From Shinella kummerowiae (GTDB lineage: Bacteria; Pseudomonadota; Alphaproteobacteria; Rhizobiales; Rhizobiaceae), in contig NZ_WUMK01000003.1 in assembly GCF_009827055.1 (NCBI RefSeq), forward strand, positions 496,001 through 560,000: DNA of 64,000 bases, in the 5' to 3' direction. Both the position numbers and the translations under genes were made by a program. This document shows positions 9,531 to 14,809 of this stretch, one piece after another. Each line of letters opens with the position of its first letter. Position 1 is the first letter of the stretch. A model generated the notes under the pieces. That model ran no database searches. It was not told the DNA's origin and was given only the letters and a program-made list of their open reading frames with translations.

Positions 9531-11000
9531 GTGACAGCTCTCAATGCCATCATCGATTTGCTCAACACGATCTTCTGGGGCTATGTGCTCATCTACGGGC
9601 TGATCGCGGTCGGCATTTATTTCACCTTGCGTCTTCGCTTCATCCAGATCCTGCATTTCCCGGAAATGTTCCGCTCCGTGATGGCCGCACCGGCAAACGA
9701 CTCAAGCGGCATCACACCGTTCCAGGCGCTGTGCACCAGCCTTGCCTCCCGCGTTGGCACGGGCAACCTTGCCGGTGTCGCCGTCGCGCTTTTCCTCGGC
9801 GGGCCGGGCGCGCTATTCTGGATGTGGGTGGTGGCGGCCGTCGGCATGGCGACGGCCTATTCGGAAAGCGCGCTCGCGCAACTCTACAAGATCACCGACC
9901 ACAATGGGCAGTATCGCGGCGGGCCGGCCTTCTACATTTCGCGCGGCCTGAACGCACCCTGGGCCGGCGCCATCTTCTCCATCTGCCTGATCATCGCCTT
10001 CGGCCTCGTCTTCAACGCGGTGCAGGCGAATTCCATTGCCGACGCGATGCAGGGTGCCTTCGGCATCGACAAGATCTGGGTCGGCGTCGGGCTTGCGGTG
10101 CTGACCGCAGTGGTGATCTTCGGCGGGATCCGGCAGATCGCGCAGGTTGCCGAATATGTCGTGCCCTTCATGGCCGTCGCCTATCTCGGCATGGCCGTCT
10201 ATGTCGTGGTGACGAACATCACCGAAGTGCCGGCCGTGCTCTCGCTCATTGTCAAGAGCGCCTTCGGCATCGAGCAGGCCGCCGGTGGCGTGGCAGGCGC
10301 CATGCTGAACGGCGTCAAGCGCGGCCTCTTCTCCAACGAAGCCGGTATGGGTTCGGCGCCGAACATCGCAGCCGTTGCCACACCGTCGCCGCATCATCCG
10401 GCCAGCCAGGGCTTCGTGCAGGCGCTCGGCGTGTTCATCGACACGATCCTGATCTGCACGGCGACCGGCATCATGATCCTGCTGTCCGGCGTCATGACAC
10501 CCGGCTCCGAGCTGACCGGCACGCCGCTTACACAGGAAGCGATGGTTGCCCATATCGGCGAAGCGGGTCGCTATTTCATCGCCATAGCGATCTTCTTCTT
10601 CGCCTTCACGTCGATCATCGGAAATTACGCTTATTCGGAAAACGCGATGGTCTTCCTGAAGCTCGACAACAAGGGCACGATCGCTGCCTTGCGGGTCGCC
10701 GTGCTCTTGATGGTCATCTGGGGCGCCTATACGACCGTCGCGGTCGTCTTCAACATGGCCGACGCGGCAATGGGGCTGATGGCGTCGGTCAACCTCGTCG
10801 CCATCGTACTGCTCTCTGGCACCGTGGCGAAGCTGACGAAGGACTATTTCGATCAGAAAAAAACCGGCGACCCACGCTTCGATCCGGATGCCTATCCGGA
10901 ACTGAAGGGCAAGATCGAACACGCTATCTGGGTGCGGCAGCCGACACCCGTCACCAACGCAACCAGCGCCGACCAAGGAGCGCGCCAGACAGGGTCATGA
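9531..11000 (+). CDS. Sodium:alanine/glycine symporter (AGCS family)
   Basis: 489-residue inner-membrane symporter with about ten or more helices. Family landmarks are 'SLASRVGTGNLAGVAVALFL' near residue 70, 'NEAGMGSAPN' mid-protein and 'YSENAMVFLKL' late. The start is GTG at 9531 with AAGGAGAC just upstream; the frame stays open 228 bases further upstream, but that stretch holds the palindromic leader and lacks protein-like sequence. It imports small neutral amino acids (alanine, glycine) with Na+. A glycine-to-pyruvate operon 20 kb away could use glycine it imports (inference). Its 3' end overlaps the convergent nrsF gene by 50 bases. Confidence 0.9.
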   Translation: MTALNAIIDLLNTIFWGYVLIYGLIAVGIYFTLRLRFIQILHFPEMFRSVMAAPANDSSGITPFQALCTSLASRVGTGNLAGVAVALFLGGPGALFWMWVVAAVGMATAYSESALAQLYKITDHNGQYRGGPAFYISRGLNAPWAGAIFSICLIIAFGLVFNAVQANSIADAMQGAFGIDKIWVGVGLAVLTAVVIFGGIRQIAQVAEYVVPFMAVAYLGMAVYVVVTNITEVPAVLSLIVKSAFGIEQAAGGVAGAMLNGVKRGLFSNEAGMGSAPNIAAVATPSPHHPASQGFVQALGVFIDTILICTATGIMILLSGVMTPGSELTGTPLTQEAMVAHIGEAGRYFIAIAIFFFAFTSIIGNYAYSENAMVFLKLDNKGTIAALRVAVLLMVIWGAYTTVAVVFNMADAAMGLMASVNLVAIVLLSGTVAKLTKDYFDQKKTGDPRFDPDAYPELKGKIEHAIWVRQPTPVTNATSADQGARQTGS

Positions 11001-11586
11001 TGGCAATGGCGATCGTGTACCAGGTGGCGAGAAAGAGCGGACTGTCGTCGGGGCAGTGCCAGGCATAGATGGCGGCAGCGACAGCGCCCGCGGCAAACCC
11101 CGCAGCGCTACCGGCCGCTGTCGGATTGGCAGGCGCACCCTTTTTCAGCGCCCAGAACAGCCCCGCAAAGGGCGCAAGGGAGAGAACCGGAACGAAGAAC
11201 AGGCAGAACAGCGCGTTGCGGCCGACGAGATTTGCTTTCCACGCGTCCGAAGGGAGAACAACGAGCTCCGCAACGACCGCGACCGCCACCATCAGTGCCG
11301 GCACCGCGAGCAGAAGGGTGGGAATGCGCATCGGCTCGCCCGGTCGACCGATCCGCATGGCGAGCCGCACCGCAAGGACGGCAAGGACGATCGTCACGAC
11401 GATTTTGAAGCACACCCGCGCGGTCTCGAACACTGTCGCCATGTTGTGCCGGAGGCCGACGGTGACGACGAGAAGCAACGCGGAGAAGACGAAGCCCGCA
11501 ACGATCGCGATCGCAAGCGCCCGGCCGTAGCGCATGCCTACGGGCGCATCTTGCGTCATCAGGGTGATCAGGTCGTCGGTCTTCAT
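10951..11586 (-). CDS. nrsF: Anti-sigma factor NrsF (DUF1109)
   Basis: 211 residues with six predicted transmembrane segments and a short cytosolic N-terminus (MKTDDLITLMTQDAPV). This matches the NrsF/DUF1109 family of membrane anti-sigma factors, which hold SigF-type ECF sigmas inactive until a metal or redox signal arrives. It starts one base after the sigma gene stop, so the two are translated together. Cysteines in the membrane region ('ARVCFKIV', 'ALFCLFF', 'AWHCPDD') are candidates for the sensor residues described in the family. The 3' end overlaps the symporter gene by 50 bases on the opposite strand. Confidence 0.85.
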   Translation of the reverse strand: MKTDDLITLMTQDAPVGMRYGRALAIAIVAGFVFSALLLVVTVGLRHNMATVFETARVCFKIVVTIVLAVLAVRLAMRIGRPGEPMRIPTLLLAVPALMVAVAVVAELVVLPSDAWKANLVGRNALFCLFFVPVLSLAPFAGLFWALKKGAPANPTAAGSAAGFAAGAVAAAIYAWHCPDDSPLFLATWYTIAIAIMTLSGALLGRRWLRW

Positions 11587-11587
11587 G

Positions 11588-12142
11588 TCATTCGCTCCGA
11601 TAGAGGGCAGCCAGCGATTTCAGCGCCCGGTGGAGGGAGACGCGCACGGCCACCTCCGTCATTTTCAACCGTGCCGCCGTTTCCCTGATGCCTGCTCCTT
11701 CCAGGGAAATCGAGCGGACGATGTCCCGCTGCGGTTCCTTCAACTGGGCCAGGACCGTCTCGGTGTCGAGCCGGTCGGCGGCCTCATGCGTCCCGTCCTC
11801 CGCCTCCAGGAAATCGGAGACATCGTCGATCGGCACATTCACATGCCGGCCACGGCGGCGCAGGCTGTCGATCAGCTTGTTGCGCACGATGGTCGTGAGC
11901 CACGGGCCGAGCGGCCGCGCCGGATCCCAGGTACCGCGCTTCAGGTGGATCGCCAGCAGCACTTCCTGCACGACGTCCTCCGCCTCGCTCGCAGGCGCAC
12001 CGAACTGATCGCAGCGCCGCCGCGCCATGGCGCGCAGATGAGGTGTCACCGCCAGGAGGAAACGGTTATAGGCTTGCGCGTCGCCCTTGATGGCGAGGCG
12101 CAGCCAGGCCGCCCATTCCTCTTCACGCACCGATTGTTTCAC
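11588..12142 (-). CDS. sigF: ECF RNA polymerase sigma factor, SigF/NrsF group
   Basis: 184 residues with sigma region 2 ('EAEDVVQEVLLAIHLKRGTW', about residues 53-72) and region 4 ('ETAARLKMTEVAVRVSLHRA', near the C-terminus). Together with nrsF and the divergent DUF2282/DUF692/DUF2063/DoxX operon it matches the Caulobacter SigF-NrsF module that answers heavy metals. Start is GTG at 12142; a second in-frame GTG four codons on is possible, and neither has a strong ribosome site. A GTAACA-N16-CGTA promoter lies 13-38 bases upstream, matching the one before bufA, so the gene is probably self-activated. Confidence 0.9.
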   Translation of the reverse strand: MKQSVREEEWAAWLRLAIKGDAQAYNRFLLAVTPHLRAMARRRCDQFGAPASEAEDVVQEVLLAIHLKRGTWDPARPLGPWLTTIVRNKLIDSLRRRGRHVNVPIDDVSDFLEAEDGTHEAADRLDTETVLAQLKEPQRDIVRSISLEGAGIRETAARLKMTEVAVRVSLHRALKSLAALYRSE

Positions 12143-12154
12143 TGCTGTCTACCC

Positions 12155-12180
12155 TACGTCGGGGAACACAAACTTGTTAC
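12155..12180 (-). promoter_or_regulatory. Predicted ECF promoter of the sigma/nrsF genes
   Basis: On the minus strand GTAACA (12175-12180) is followed after exactly 16 bases by CGTA (12155-12158). The same -35/spacer/-10 layout occurs ahead of bufA. Transcription would begin only a few bases before the sigma GTG, giving a very short leader. Assignment rests on this shared pattern and on recalled SigF promoters with GTAACC and CGAA-like elements. Confidence 0.65.
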
Positions 12181-12292
12181 CACGCTCGATAAAACAAATT
12201 CGTAACAAGCATAAGCCACTGACAGAAAACGAATTTTTCTTCCAGTCGGATTGTGCTGGCGGGCATGACCGAAAAAATCGGCACCCTGCCGT

Positions 12293-12318
12293 GTAACGTA
12301 GAACAGGTCCTTTGCGTA
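12293..12318 (+). promoter_or_regulatory. Predicted ECF promoter of the bufferin operon
   Basis: GTAACG (12293-12298), a 16-base spacer, then CGTA (12315-12318), the same layout as the promoter of the divergent sigma gene. It lies about 48 bases before the bufA ATG, leaving a leader of roughly 40 bases. This is the expected target of the SigF-like sigma. Confidence 0.7.
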
Positions 12319-12365
12319 GCCGTGAATGCACAGCCAATCGCGGCTGCCACCAACGGAGACATCCT

Positions 12366-12647
12366 ATGAAGACCACGATCGCCACCCTCGCCCTCGCCGG
12401 TTCGCTTGCCTCTGCGCTTGTCGCCATCGCCACGCCGGCGGCTGCCGAAGATGCCAAGGAAAAGTGCTACGGCATCGCGATGAAGGGCCAGAACGACTGC
12501 GCCGCAGGCCCGGGCACGACCTGCGCCGGCACGTCGAAGATCGACTACCAGAAGAACGCCTTCAAGCTGGTTCCCAAGGGCACCTGCATGTCGATGAAGA
12601 CCCCCGATGGACACGGCATGCTGGAACAGGGTGCTGCGCCGGCCTGA
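12366..12647 (+). CDS. bufA: Bufferin precursor peptide (DUF2282), copper-binding RiPP
   Basis: 93 residues: a Sec signal peptide (about 1-27, ending AAA) and a mature part with four cysteines, C34, C45, C53 and C74, in the DUF2282 pattern KCYG...NDC...TTC...KGTC. DUF2282 proteins are bufferins: exported ribosomal peptides whose cysteines are modified by a DUF692 enzyme with its DUF2063 partner, so that they bind copper in the periplasm. Both partner genes follow immediately. ATG at 12366 is chosen because it begins the signal peptide; the upstream in-frame extension covers the promoter. Metal identity (copper) is carried over from characterised members. Confidence 0.88.
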
Positions 12648-12717
12648 GGTCACGTCGGACACAATGGGCGGCGTCTCTCCCCAGGCGCCGTCACCTTCCT
12701 CTTCAGAAAGGCCCGCC

Positions 12718-13572
12718 ATGATCGCCTCCACCCTTCCGCGCCGTGCCGGCATCGGTTTCAAGCCGGAGCACTTCGTCGATATTCTCGCCGCGCCGCAACC
12801 CATCGGCTTTTTCGAGGTTCACGCGGAAAACTACATGGGTGCCGGCGGTCCGCCGCATGCACAGCTCGGCCGGTTGCGCGAGGACTACGCGCTTTCCATC
12901 CATGGCGTCGGCCTGTCCATCGGCTCCATGCAGCCGCTCGACCGAGATCATCTCAGCCGGCTGAAGACCCTGTGCGACCGCTATCAGCCGGAGAGTTTTT
13001 CCGAGCATCTCGCCTGGTCGACCCATGACAGCGTCTTCCTCAACGATCTTCTGCCGCTTCCCTATACCGAGGCAACCCTTGCCCAGGTGGTCGATCACGT
13101 CGAACAGGTCCAGGCCACGCTGGGGCGGCAGATGCTGCTGGAAAACCCCGCCACCTATCTGCTTTTCCAGGAGAGCACGATCGAGGAAACGGATTTCCTC
13201 GCCGAGGTCGCGCGGCGCACCGGCTGCGGCCTGCTGCTCGACGTCAACAACGTCTTCGTCGCGGCGACGAACCACAATCTCGATCCCTATGACTACATCG
13301 CGCGCTTTCCCTTGGAGGCCGTGCGCGAAATCCACCTCAGCGGTCATTCCGAAACGGTGGACGATCTCGGTGCACCGCTTCTCATCGACAGCCATGATAC
13401 ACCGGTGAAAGATCCGGTCTGGGCGCTCTACGAAACGGTCATCGGCCGCATCGGCCCGATTGCCAGTCTCGTCGAATGGGACAACGATGTGCCGGCCTGG
13501 CCGGTGCTTCGCGCCGAAGCGGGCGCAGCACAGGACATCCTCGACGCCGCCACGCGGCAAAGGGCGGCTTGA
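12718..13572 (+). CDS. bufB: Multinuclear iron oxygenase of bufferin maturation (DUF692)
   Basis: 284-residue TIM-barrel MNIO enzyme that converts cysteines of the DUF2282 peptide to heterocyclic thiol products in characterised systems. Metal-ligand motifs of DUF692 are all present in order: 'SIHGVGLS', 'FSEHLAW', 'LENPATY', 'LLLDVNNV', 'EIHLSGHS', 'DSHDTPV' and 'VEWDNDVP'. ATG at 12718 has AGAAAGG upstream and begins the conserved 'GIGFKPEHF' N-terminus; an in-frame extension upstream is not conserved-looking. It is followed after 3 bases by bufC, whose product presents the peptide to the enzyme. Confidence 0.92.
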
Positions 13573-13575
13573 GCG

Positions 13576-14361
13576 ATGTCCGCCGCCACGCAGAACGCCT
13601 TCGCCGTCGGCCTCTTCGATATGACCCCGCCGCCCGCCGGGTTGACGGCTTGGAATGCCGCCGTGCCGGAGCGACGCTACGGGGTCTACCGCAACAATGT
13701 TTCCTCCAGCCTCACCGGCGCCCTCGCCTCCCGCTTTCCGGCGACGGAAACCATTGTCGGTCCAGAATTCTTTGGCGCGATGGCGCAAGCCTTCATTCGG
13801 CTCCACCCGCCGCACTCCCCCTTGCTTCTCGCCTATGGCGACGACTTTCCCGATTTCATCGCCGATTTCGAACCGGCAGCCGAACTGGCCTATCTACCGG
13901 ACGTAATGCGCCTGGAGGTCGCCCGTGGAAAGGCCTATCACGCGGCGGACGTGACATCGATCGATCCGCAGGCGCTTGCCGCCGTCGCGCCGGCCCGGCT
14001 TGGCTCGCTCGTCTTCGCGCCGCACCCGTCCCTGTCGATCCTCTCGTCCTTCCATCCGATGGTGACGATCTGGGCGATGAATTCCGGTCACCAGCCGCTT
14101 GCCATCATCGAAGGCTGGCACGGCGAGGACGCGCTGATCGCACGCCCAGCCATGATCGTCGAGGTCGTCCCGCTTGCACCGGGCGGTGCAACCTTCTTCC
14201 GCCAGCTTGCCGCCGGCACAGTGCTTGCCGGAGCCGCAGAGGCTGCCATCCGGGCGGATGCGCGCTTCGATGTCACGACGAACCTTGCAACGCTGCTCCG
14301 CAGCGGAGCCTTCACCACCTTCAGCCAGGAGAACACTGATGAAGACCGAGACCATGCCTGA
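13576..14361 (+). CDS. bufC: DUF2063 peptide-recognition partner of bufferin maturation
   Basis: 261 residues with the DUF2063 N-terminal helical domain ('[20 protein letters not shown]', about residues 34-53; '[17 protein letters not shown]', about 107-123) and a C-terminal beta-rich domain. In bufferin and other MNIO systems this partner binds the precursor leader and the DUF692 enzyme. It starts 3 bases after bufB and overlaps the DoxX gene by 23 bases. Cytosolic. Confidence 0.9.
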
Positions 14362-14809
14362 TCTTGCAGGCCCCTTGCCGAAGCGGTTCTTCGAGCAGGT
14401 GGTCCAGACCCTCGATCGTATCCCGAACGATCTCATCGCGCTCGTGGCGCGCCTCTCCATCGCCGCCGTCTTCTGGCAATCCGGACAGACGAAGGTCGAG
14501 GGTTGGATGCTCTCCGACAACGCGCTCTATCTGTTCGAGAACGAATACAAGCTGCCGCTCATCGATCCCTGGCTCGCCGCGCATCTCGCCGCCTTCGCCG
14601 AGCACTTTTTTCCGATCCTGCTGGTCATCGGCCTTGCCACCCGCTTCTCCGCGCTGGCGCTTCTGGGAATGACGCTGGTGATCGAGATTTTCGTCTATCC
14701 CGACGCCTGGCCGACGCACGGCACCTGGGCCGCCTGCCTGCTGTTCATCGCGGCACGCGGACCGGGACTGTTTTCGCTGGATGCGGTGATCGCCAGAATG
14801 GCCCGCTAA
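14339..14809 (+). CDS. DoxX-family membrane protein of the bufferin operon
   Basis: 156 residues with four transmembrane helices; '[19 protein letters not shown]' and '[20 protein letters not shown]' are typical of DoxX. Such a gene is the usual fourth member of DUF2282/DUF692/DUF2063 operons (sometimes called bufD); its role is unclear, perhaps membrane redox support. ATG at 14339 has AGGAG eight bases upstream and overlaps the end of bufC, indicating translational coupling. Confidence 0.85.

Follow-up and report, generated by a model that had tools for sequence, protein, structure and literature searches.

The 64,000-nucleotide (nt) stretch of the Shinella kummerowiae genome that we analysed (assembly GCF_009827055.1, contig NZ_WUMK01000003.1, positions 496,001 to 560,000; hereafter the window) contains, as judged from family matches, a four-gene Buf1 bufferin operon that diverges from the genes of an ECF16-type extracytoplasmic function (ECF) sigma factor and its NrsF-type anti-sigma factor (Table 1). 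We regard it as highly probable that the locus constitutes a self-contained bufferin system governed by this sigma/anti-sigma pair. This assessment draws on the gene content, the promoter pair and its conservation, the conservation of the cysteines, the single copy of the system in the genome and the helix model of NrsF, all of which come from our own analysis. The arrangement itself has already been published for orthologous loci, and the Shinella locus adds to this known type. New relative to published work are the details of a probable tandem-to-hybrid history of the Shinella precursor gene and a variant -10 element, CGTA. No published account linking Shinella with bufferin, RpoE7 or DUF2282 was found by a search that would miss the plural form "bufferins".

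The two divergent units are separated by a gap of 223 base pairs that holds both GTAAC(A/G)-N16-CGTA sites, one ahead of each unit and with identical spacing, as the initial annotation of this DNA had pointed out. The genome scan proposed there was carried out as well: the strict pattern occurs at six sites in 6.34 megabases, and only the sigF and bufA sites lie together. A reversed-pattern control gives 14 sites, and at this control rate about 2.5e-4 sites per strand would be expected in such a gap (our own arithmetic), so that a divergent pair located there can hardly be due to chance. The strict pattern is found 4, 4 and 7 times in three further genomes of the Shinella group, the same pair being included in each. 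Neither the strict nor the relaxed form of the motif is enriched genome-wide over its reversed control, and it is therefore the position and the conservation of the pair, not the motif alone, that bear the argument.

Conservation was assessed with a looser pattern (GTAAC, a spacer of 15-17 after the sixth base, CGNA). Our family survey comprised 247 genomes, 88 of which had an NrsF match at an E value of 0.001, and 90 of the 102 NrsF matches were taken with their surroundings, the 12 weakest being omitted. Bufferin genes are divergent from the nrsF unit at 45 of these 90 loci and absent from the retrieved stretch at 38; at the remaining seven they lie elsewhere or were mislocated, as happened with the bufA start of locus L078, which our script misplaced. 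Both promoters were recognised at 38 of the 45 divergent loci, one of them being the window's own, while the other seven lack one recognised site, five ahead of sigF and two ahead of bufA. The exact form present in the window (N16, CGTA) stands ahead of bufA at six of the 38 two-site loci. A table of base positions built from these loci shows GTAAC throughout by construction, since both motifs were the reason for choosing them, and it plays no part in the argument. Among 9000 dinucleotide shuffles, 86 had a plus-strand site, 64 a minus-strand site and none had both. A second sample, collected through BufB from named genomes (80 loci, reduced to 79 by the exclusion of L186, which has no BufA match), contains 42 divergent loci, 37 of which have both sites and five of which lack the bufA site, although some species may occur in both samples and loci from relatives are not independent of one another. 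Among these 79 loci, the motif precedes bufA at 46 of the 56 whose retrieved stretch includes a SigF match, versus 6 of the 23 others (Fisher p 4e-6, uncorrected for relatedness), and it does so in 1 of 13 long stretches that lack SigF.

The sites belong to a promoter type described for characterised relatives, whose reports are drawn on here in part. The published ECF16 promoter reads (T/C)GTAAC-N17-CGAA (PMC8315932), and SigF of Caulobacter controls CC3254-CC3257 via GTAACC-N16-CGAA (PMC3511200). In Sinorhizobium meliloti, overexpression of RpoE7 raises expression of both rpoE7-ecfR7 and the divergent SMb20530-SMb20527 operon, and GTAACA...CGAA promoters are listed for both units, with the rpoE7 spacer one base shorter (PMC6180224). 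Taken together with the conserved promoter pair, these reports provide good support for the suggestion made in the initial annotation that one sigma factor, SigF, would drive both units.

The Shinella locus resembles that of S. meliloti in its four-gene operon divergent from a sigma/anti-sigma pair and in its promoter type. It likewise resembles the SigF-NrsF/CC3254-CC3257 system of Caulobacter with bufferin 1 (Leprevost et al., 2024, through the papers citing it) in operon content, the two conserved cysteines of NrsF and the type of promoter. However, the Caulobacter regulon also comprises a second bufferin-type operon (CC2907-CC2905) and msrPQ, whereas the Shinella genome has one DUF2282 match and one MNIO match. 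With the BcrS-AbcS/bcrXQP system of Brucella, it shares an ECF16 sigma factor, an NrsF-type anti-sigma factor, an adjoining target operon and the promoter type; the Brucella system differs in that its target is a Met-rich peptide with an MsrPQ-type pair and its inducer hypochlorous acid (HOCl) (PMC8315932).

Compared with the published ECF16/SigF promoter, the window motif carries a single A-to-T change in the -10 element (CGTA for CGAA), and it differs in the same way from S. meliloti, where both promoters have CGAA while both have CGTA in Shinella. The 75 loci with both sites divide into 32 with CGTA at both promoters, 32 with CGAA at both and 11 with CGAA at the bufferin and CGTA at the sigF promoter. 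Mapped on the SigF tree, CGTA has a single origin at the bufferin promoter, and at sigF it involves seven changes. The SigF residues G70/D73/R76 are present in 30 of the 33 rows with CGTA at both promoters (the 32 loci and the window row); in the 32 rows with CGAA at both, H70 occurs in 27, R73 in 19 and A76 in 17. We considered co-evolution of the -10 element with the sigma factor and rejected it, as a single change of the bufferin -10 on the tree provides no independent evidence. For the same reason, the coincidence of -10 form and sigma loop residues serves as a lead only.

The search for further regulon members used the relaxed motif GTAACN17CGWA at one spacing (N16 after the sixth base) across the whole genome and returned 21 sites, compared with 63 for the reversed control. 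Fourteen of the 19 sites outside the pair lie within likely genes and five do not, according to a GC-frame heuristic, and two of these five precede a likely gene start, that of an RNase E gene and that of a RepA-like gene (both named by eye). The RNase E site (L005 1501-1526; relatives L243-L245) was rejected because its -10 element is broken in two of the three other Shinella genomes; being kept in two of the four Shinella-group genomes, it probably matches by chance within a conserved leader. The site ahead of the RepA-like gene (own genome, L230 C2:123863-123888) possibly lies in a plasmid replication region. MsrPQ-like genes were examined through four fetched Oxidored_molyb loci, three of which have no SigF motif; the match at the fourth, L226 (24 bases, the spacer being shorter, roughly 1 kb beyond the Oxidored_molyb domain), was not accepted as a promoter. 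A separate observation concerns sigF itself: only 12 nt lie between its predicted -10 element and the GTG start codon (window positions 12143-12158), and its transcript would therefore be nearly leaderless, unless translation begins further in.

Profile searches of the window proteins and of the genome relied on the Pfam per-family thresholds and the NCBIfam equivalog thresholds. Every gene named in the initial annotation was recovered at its place and in the divergent orientation described there, each above its Pfam cut-off. The start of doxX overlaps the 3' end of bufC by 23 nt, and a GGAGA stretch lies 6 nt ahead of the bufA ATG. NrsF, DUF2282 and MNIO (PF05114) each have a single match in the whole genome.

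Table 1. Genes and predicted promoters of the bufferin and sigF-nrsF units, in window coordinates.
Feature	Position	Strand	Basis
nrsF, membrane anti-sigma factor (NrsF family)	10951..11586	-	PF06532 189 bits, cut-off 26.8
sigF, ECF sigma factor, GTG start	11588..12142	-	Sigma70_r2 and r4_2 above cut-off; PRK12512 270.7 bits, cut-off 198
predicted SigF promoter of sigF-nrsF, GTAACA-N16-CGTA	12155..12180	-	motif and conservation in relatives
predicted SigF promoter of the bufferin operon, GTAACG-N16-CGTA	12293..12318	+	motif and conservation in relatives
bufA, 93-residue DUF2282 precursor	12366..12647	+	PF10048 89 bits, cut-off 22.4
bufB, MNIO maturase	12718..13572	+	PF05114 355 bits; NF050167 MNIO_BufB 387 bits, cut-off 310
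bufC, DUF2063 partner protein	13576..14361	+	PF09836 84 bits, cut-off 27.2
doxX-family membrane protein	14339..14809	+	PF07681 69.5 bits, cut-off 23.6

By family match, the operon has the components of a Buf1 cluster: a DUF2282 precursor with four cysteines, a BufB-type MNIO protein and a DUF2063 partner. The equivalog models of the BufA2/oxazolin (Hvf) type are missed (BufA2 19.8 bits against a cut-off of 60, HvfB 234.3 against 360, HvfC 39.5 against 142, HvfX 52.9 against 80). The neighbouring pair matches the ECF16 SigF/NrsF type in having a six-helix anti-sigma factor of the NrsF/DUF1109 family beside an ECF sigma factor, two conserved cysteines and the promoter type, and sigma factors together with NrsF have been noted as components of Buf1 clusters in parts of the bufferin literature. 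SigF is thus assigned to ECF16 through its neighbour and its promoter rather than by an ECF classifier. NrsF scores 87.2 bits against the NCBIfam equivalog NF042994 (cut-off 300), which makes it a homologue outside the equivalog. The closest named relatives of BufB are those of three Shinella loci (85-86% identity), and its solved relatives by sequence are 3bww, 8hci and MbnB; for BufA and NrsF, no solved structure was found by sequence. An MNIO relative is also encoded by 354 of 72,556 plasmid records searched with BufB, including 73 from Escherichia and 18 from Klebsiella, and plasmid NZ_CP084754.1, labelled Roseateles sp. XES5 (a label that may be wrong), carries a Shinella-type locus with 86% BufB identity.

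The initial annotation had taken the four cysteines of the precursor (positions 34, 45, 53 and 74) as a guide to its modification sites. Their positions are as given there, and the gaps between them are of 10, 6 or 7, and 20 residues at all 131 loci tabulated (at L136, over-extension of the open reading frame adds one upstream cysteine). The N-terminus, with its hydrophobic stretch and an AAA-ED sequence, resembles a Sec-type signal peptide by eye, and cleavage is assumed after residue 27. According to the Buf1 literature drawn on in part here, the two central cysteines are modified, the outer two form a disulphide, and each thiooxazole formed costs four hydrogens. On the basis of this published chemistry, only C45 and C53 are predicted to be modified, with C34 and C74 joined in a predicted disulphide and a total mass shift of about -10.08 Da. 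For the mature peptide of 66 residues that the assumed cleavage would leave, the calculated monoisotopic mass is 6820.17 Da in reduced form and would be 6810.09 Da with two thiooxazoles and one disulphide; absorption near 305 nm has been reported for peptides of this kind.

At 27 of the 131 loci, bufA is present as a tandem pair of unlike genes beside one MNIO gene, the first copy having a six-residue gap (KHDC-like) and the second a seven-residue gap (GTTC-like) between the second and the third cysteine; two further loci have two seven-gap copies. Tandem genes are present at 23 of the 26 loci L132-L157, those ranked just after the three Shinella loci among the BufB matches, while the other two-type tandem loci are L168, L088, L092 and L097. 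The Shinella bufA gene is single-copy, and its two parts resemble different copies: the signal peptide of the window BufA reaches 118 with the best-matching copy 1 and 80 with the best-matching copy 2, and its core 142 and 225, respectively. Of the 14 single genes of this clade that were compared, 13 have a signal closer to copy 1, in one case by just one point, and all 14 have a core closer to copy 2; the signal that departs is that of L142, whose start is unreadable. When applied to true tandem copies with their own locus left out, this comparison correctly assigned all 52 cores and all but one of the 52 signals. A tree built on BufB, BufC and DoxX of 46 loci (L168 being excluded from both the tree and the copy comparison) shows eight changes between the single and the tandem state, at least three of them forced.

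The single bufA gene of A. vitis (L156) is, to go by its sequence, a plain DNA-level hybrid of the two tandem copies of its sister R. oryziradicis (L153): its signal region has 88% DNA identity to copy 1 versus 73% to copy 2, and after the second cysteine the identities are 85% to copy 2 versus 72% to copy 1. For Shinella, we lean towards the view that its bufA gene arose by recombination collapse of an ancestral tandem pair at a shared stretch of 17 protein letters, by which the promoter and signal of copy 1 would have been joined to the core of copy 2, and that other lineages underwent such collapses independently, A. vitis being the plainest case. Which parts were retained would be no sign of selection, since a collapse must leave the front of copy 1 and the back of copy 2.

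It is possible, though we find it the less convincing account, that the single Shinella bufA gene is ancestral and that tandem pairs came afterwards, either through repeated origin or by passing from lineage to lineage, so that no collapse took place. The 12 single genes of the outgroup lean the same way, with eight signals closer to copy 1, the margins being 2 to 12 points versus 38 to 45 in the seven Shinella loci, and all 12 cores closer to copy 2; an ancestral single gene of such a make-up is therefore conceivable. Several observations likewise count against a collapse: the node joining every tandem locus has weak support (81/53), the outgroup does not fall on one side of a branch, and the inner branches are unresolved; at the DNA level, moreover, the Shinella gene separates the two copies poorly. 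The gene of Rhizobium sp. R634 behaves similarly after the second cysteine, as its signal region separates the copies (81% to copy 1 versus 68% to copy 2) and the remainder does not (78 versus 76%). What speaks against an ancestral single gene is the position of the tandem loci L154 and L145, which branch outside the group that holds Shinella (supports 99/91 and 96/95), and the hybrid nature of the A. vitis gene. A bufferin survey, drawn on in part, mentions tandem precursor genes in general terms and gives preliminary evidence that the signal peptide aids recognition.

The putative sensor of the system is NrsF; all 144 sequences of its alignment carry C128, and 139 of them carry C178. The AlphaFold2 model of NrsF (predicted local distance difference test score, pLDDT, 91.9) has six long helices; of its 140 matches to solved structures, the best 50 of which are listed, none reaches an E value of 0.001. 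Provided that the N-terminal tail is cytoplasmic, the model would put C128 where helix 4 ends on the periplasmic side and C178 in the loop that joins helices 5 and 6 on that same side, and the two are likely to share one site. We equate them by position with C131 and C181 of Caulobacter NrsF, a protein that is not part of our alignment. Both of these cysteines have been placed towards the periplasm, and the C131S/C181S exchanges release SigF (PMC3511200).

These findings lend themselves to a regulatory model whose links between sigma factor and promoters, inducer, peptide chemistry, export and metal binding are modelled on the published orthologues. In the resting state, inner-membrane NrsF would hold SigF. 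Periplasmic stress, most likely an excess of copper or of another thiol-active metal, would act via the C128/C178 pair, and the freed SigF would bind the two GTAAC-N17-CGTA promoters, thereby raising the expression of its own operon and of the bufferin operon. BufB with BufC would then convert C45 and C53 of BufA into thiooxazoles in the cytoplasm; subsequent to export of the peptide by Sec, the C34-C74 disulphide would form, and the periplasmic peptide would chelate copper.

Of the links in this model, the inducer deserves the closest scrutiny. The initial annotation had called the system metal-responsive, which finds its support in Caulobacter, where the SigF regulon is copper-induced, the bufferin genes answer chromium, cadmium and copper, and a sigF mutant is copper-sensitive (PMC3511200; PMC8224329). 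Copper or another thiol-active metal is accordingly the most likely signal on the Caulobacter precedent; for the Shinella locus itself, copper is no more than an inference, because the NrsF-type pair of Brucella answers HOCl (PMC8315932). An unlikely alternative with the same wiring would have oxidative or chlorine stress as the natural signal, with the thiol/thiooxazole peptide and DoxX guarding the envelope from oxidants and metal binding being secondary. Besides the Brucella system, the targets found beside other NrsF genes speak for this proposal: 15 NrsF loci without bufferin genes have a facing motif, and the motif faces a Met-rich small protein at ten of them, a DUF1223-like protein at three, an MsrA-like protein at one and no credible gene at one (names by eye), so that NrsF, judged by its neighbours, pairs with several target types. 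These loci are L039-L041, L043-L047, L049, L050, L052, L056, L057, L060 and L062. Yet agents that generate reactive oxygen are reported not to induce the Caulobacter bufferin genes (PMC3511200), and the S. meliloti operon was not induced by H2O2 (PMC6180224).

Certain observations weigh against the model as a whole. The S. meliloti orthologue is induced neither by H2O2 nor by CdCl2 or K2CrO4, and copper is not among the inducers named in the part of that report drawn on here (PMC6180224); this lack of response to cadmium and chromate favours an oxidant signal, as does the weakened state of a Caulobacter sigF mutant under stationary-phase oxidative stress (PMC8224329). NrsF, BufC and DoxX fall below the cut-offs of the nearest named NCBIfam equivalog models, and the lack of genome-wide motif enrichment has been noted above. 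That the two promoters are alike by common descent or chance, with the bufferin operon mainly under another regulator, would suit this lack of enrichment and the divergent loci at which one recognised site is missing, but is very improbable given the retention of both sites at the large majority of divergent loci in either sample, the shuffles, none of which had both, and the control of both units by RpoE7 in S. meliloti (PMC6180224).

Collectively, our data would extend the published wiring of bufferin operons to sigma factors to Shinella, where the predicted regulon is small (two promoters were found) and the response should therefore be easy to test. Whether NrsF senses metals or oxidants is a question that can be addressed directly in this system. 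The tandem and hybrid precursors represent natural variants, with two cysteine spacings and varied signal peptides, for studying how BufB-BufC recognises a Sec-exported substrate. If the hybrids are functional, they would amount to natural domain swaps in which signal peptide and core are exchangeable for a shared MNIO complex; if this holds true, it would bear on the manner in which such a complex recognises a substrate that carries a Sec signal in place of a leader.

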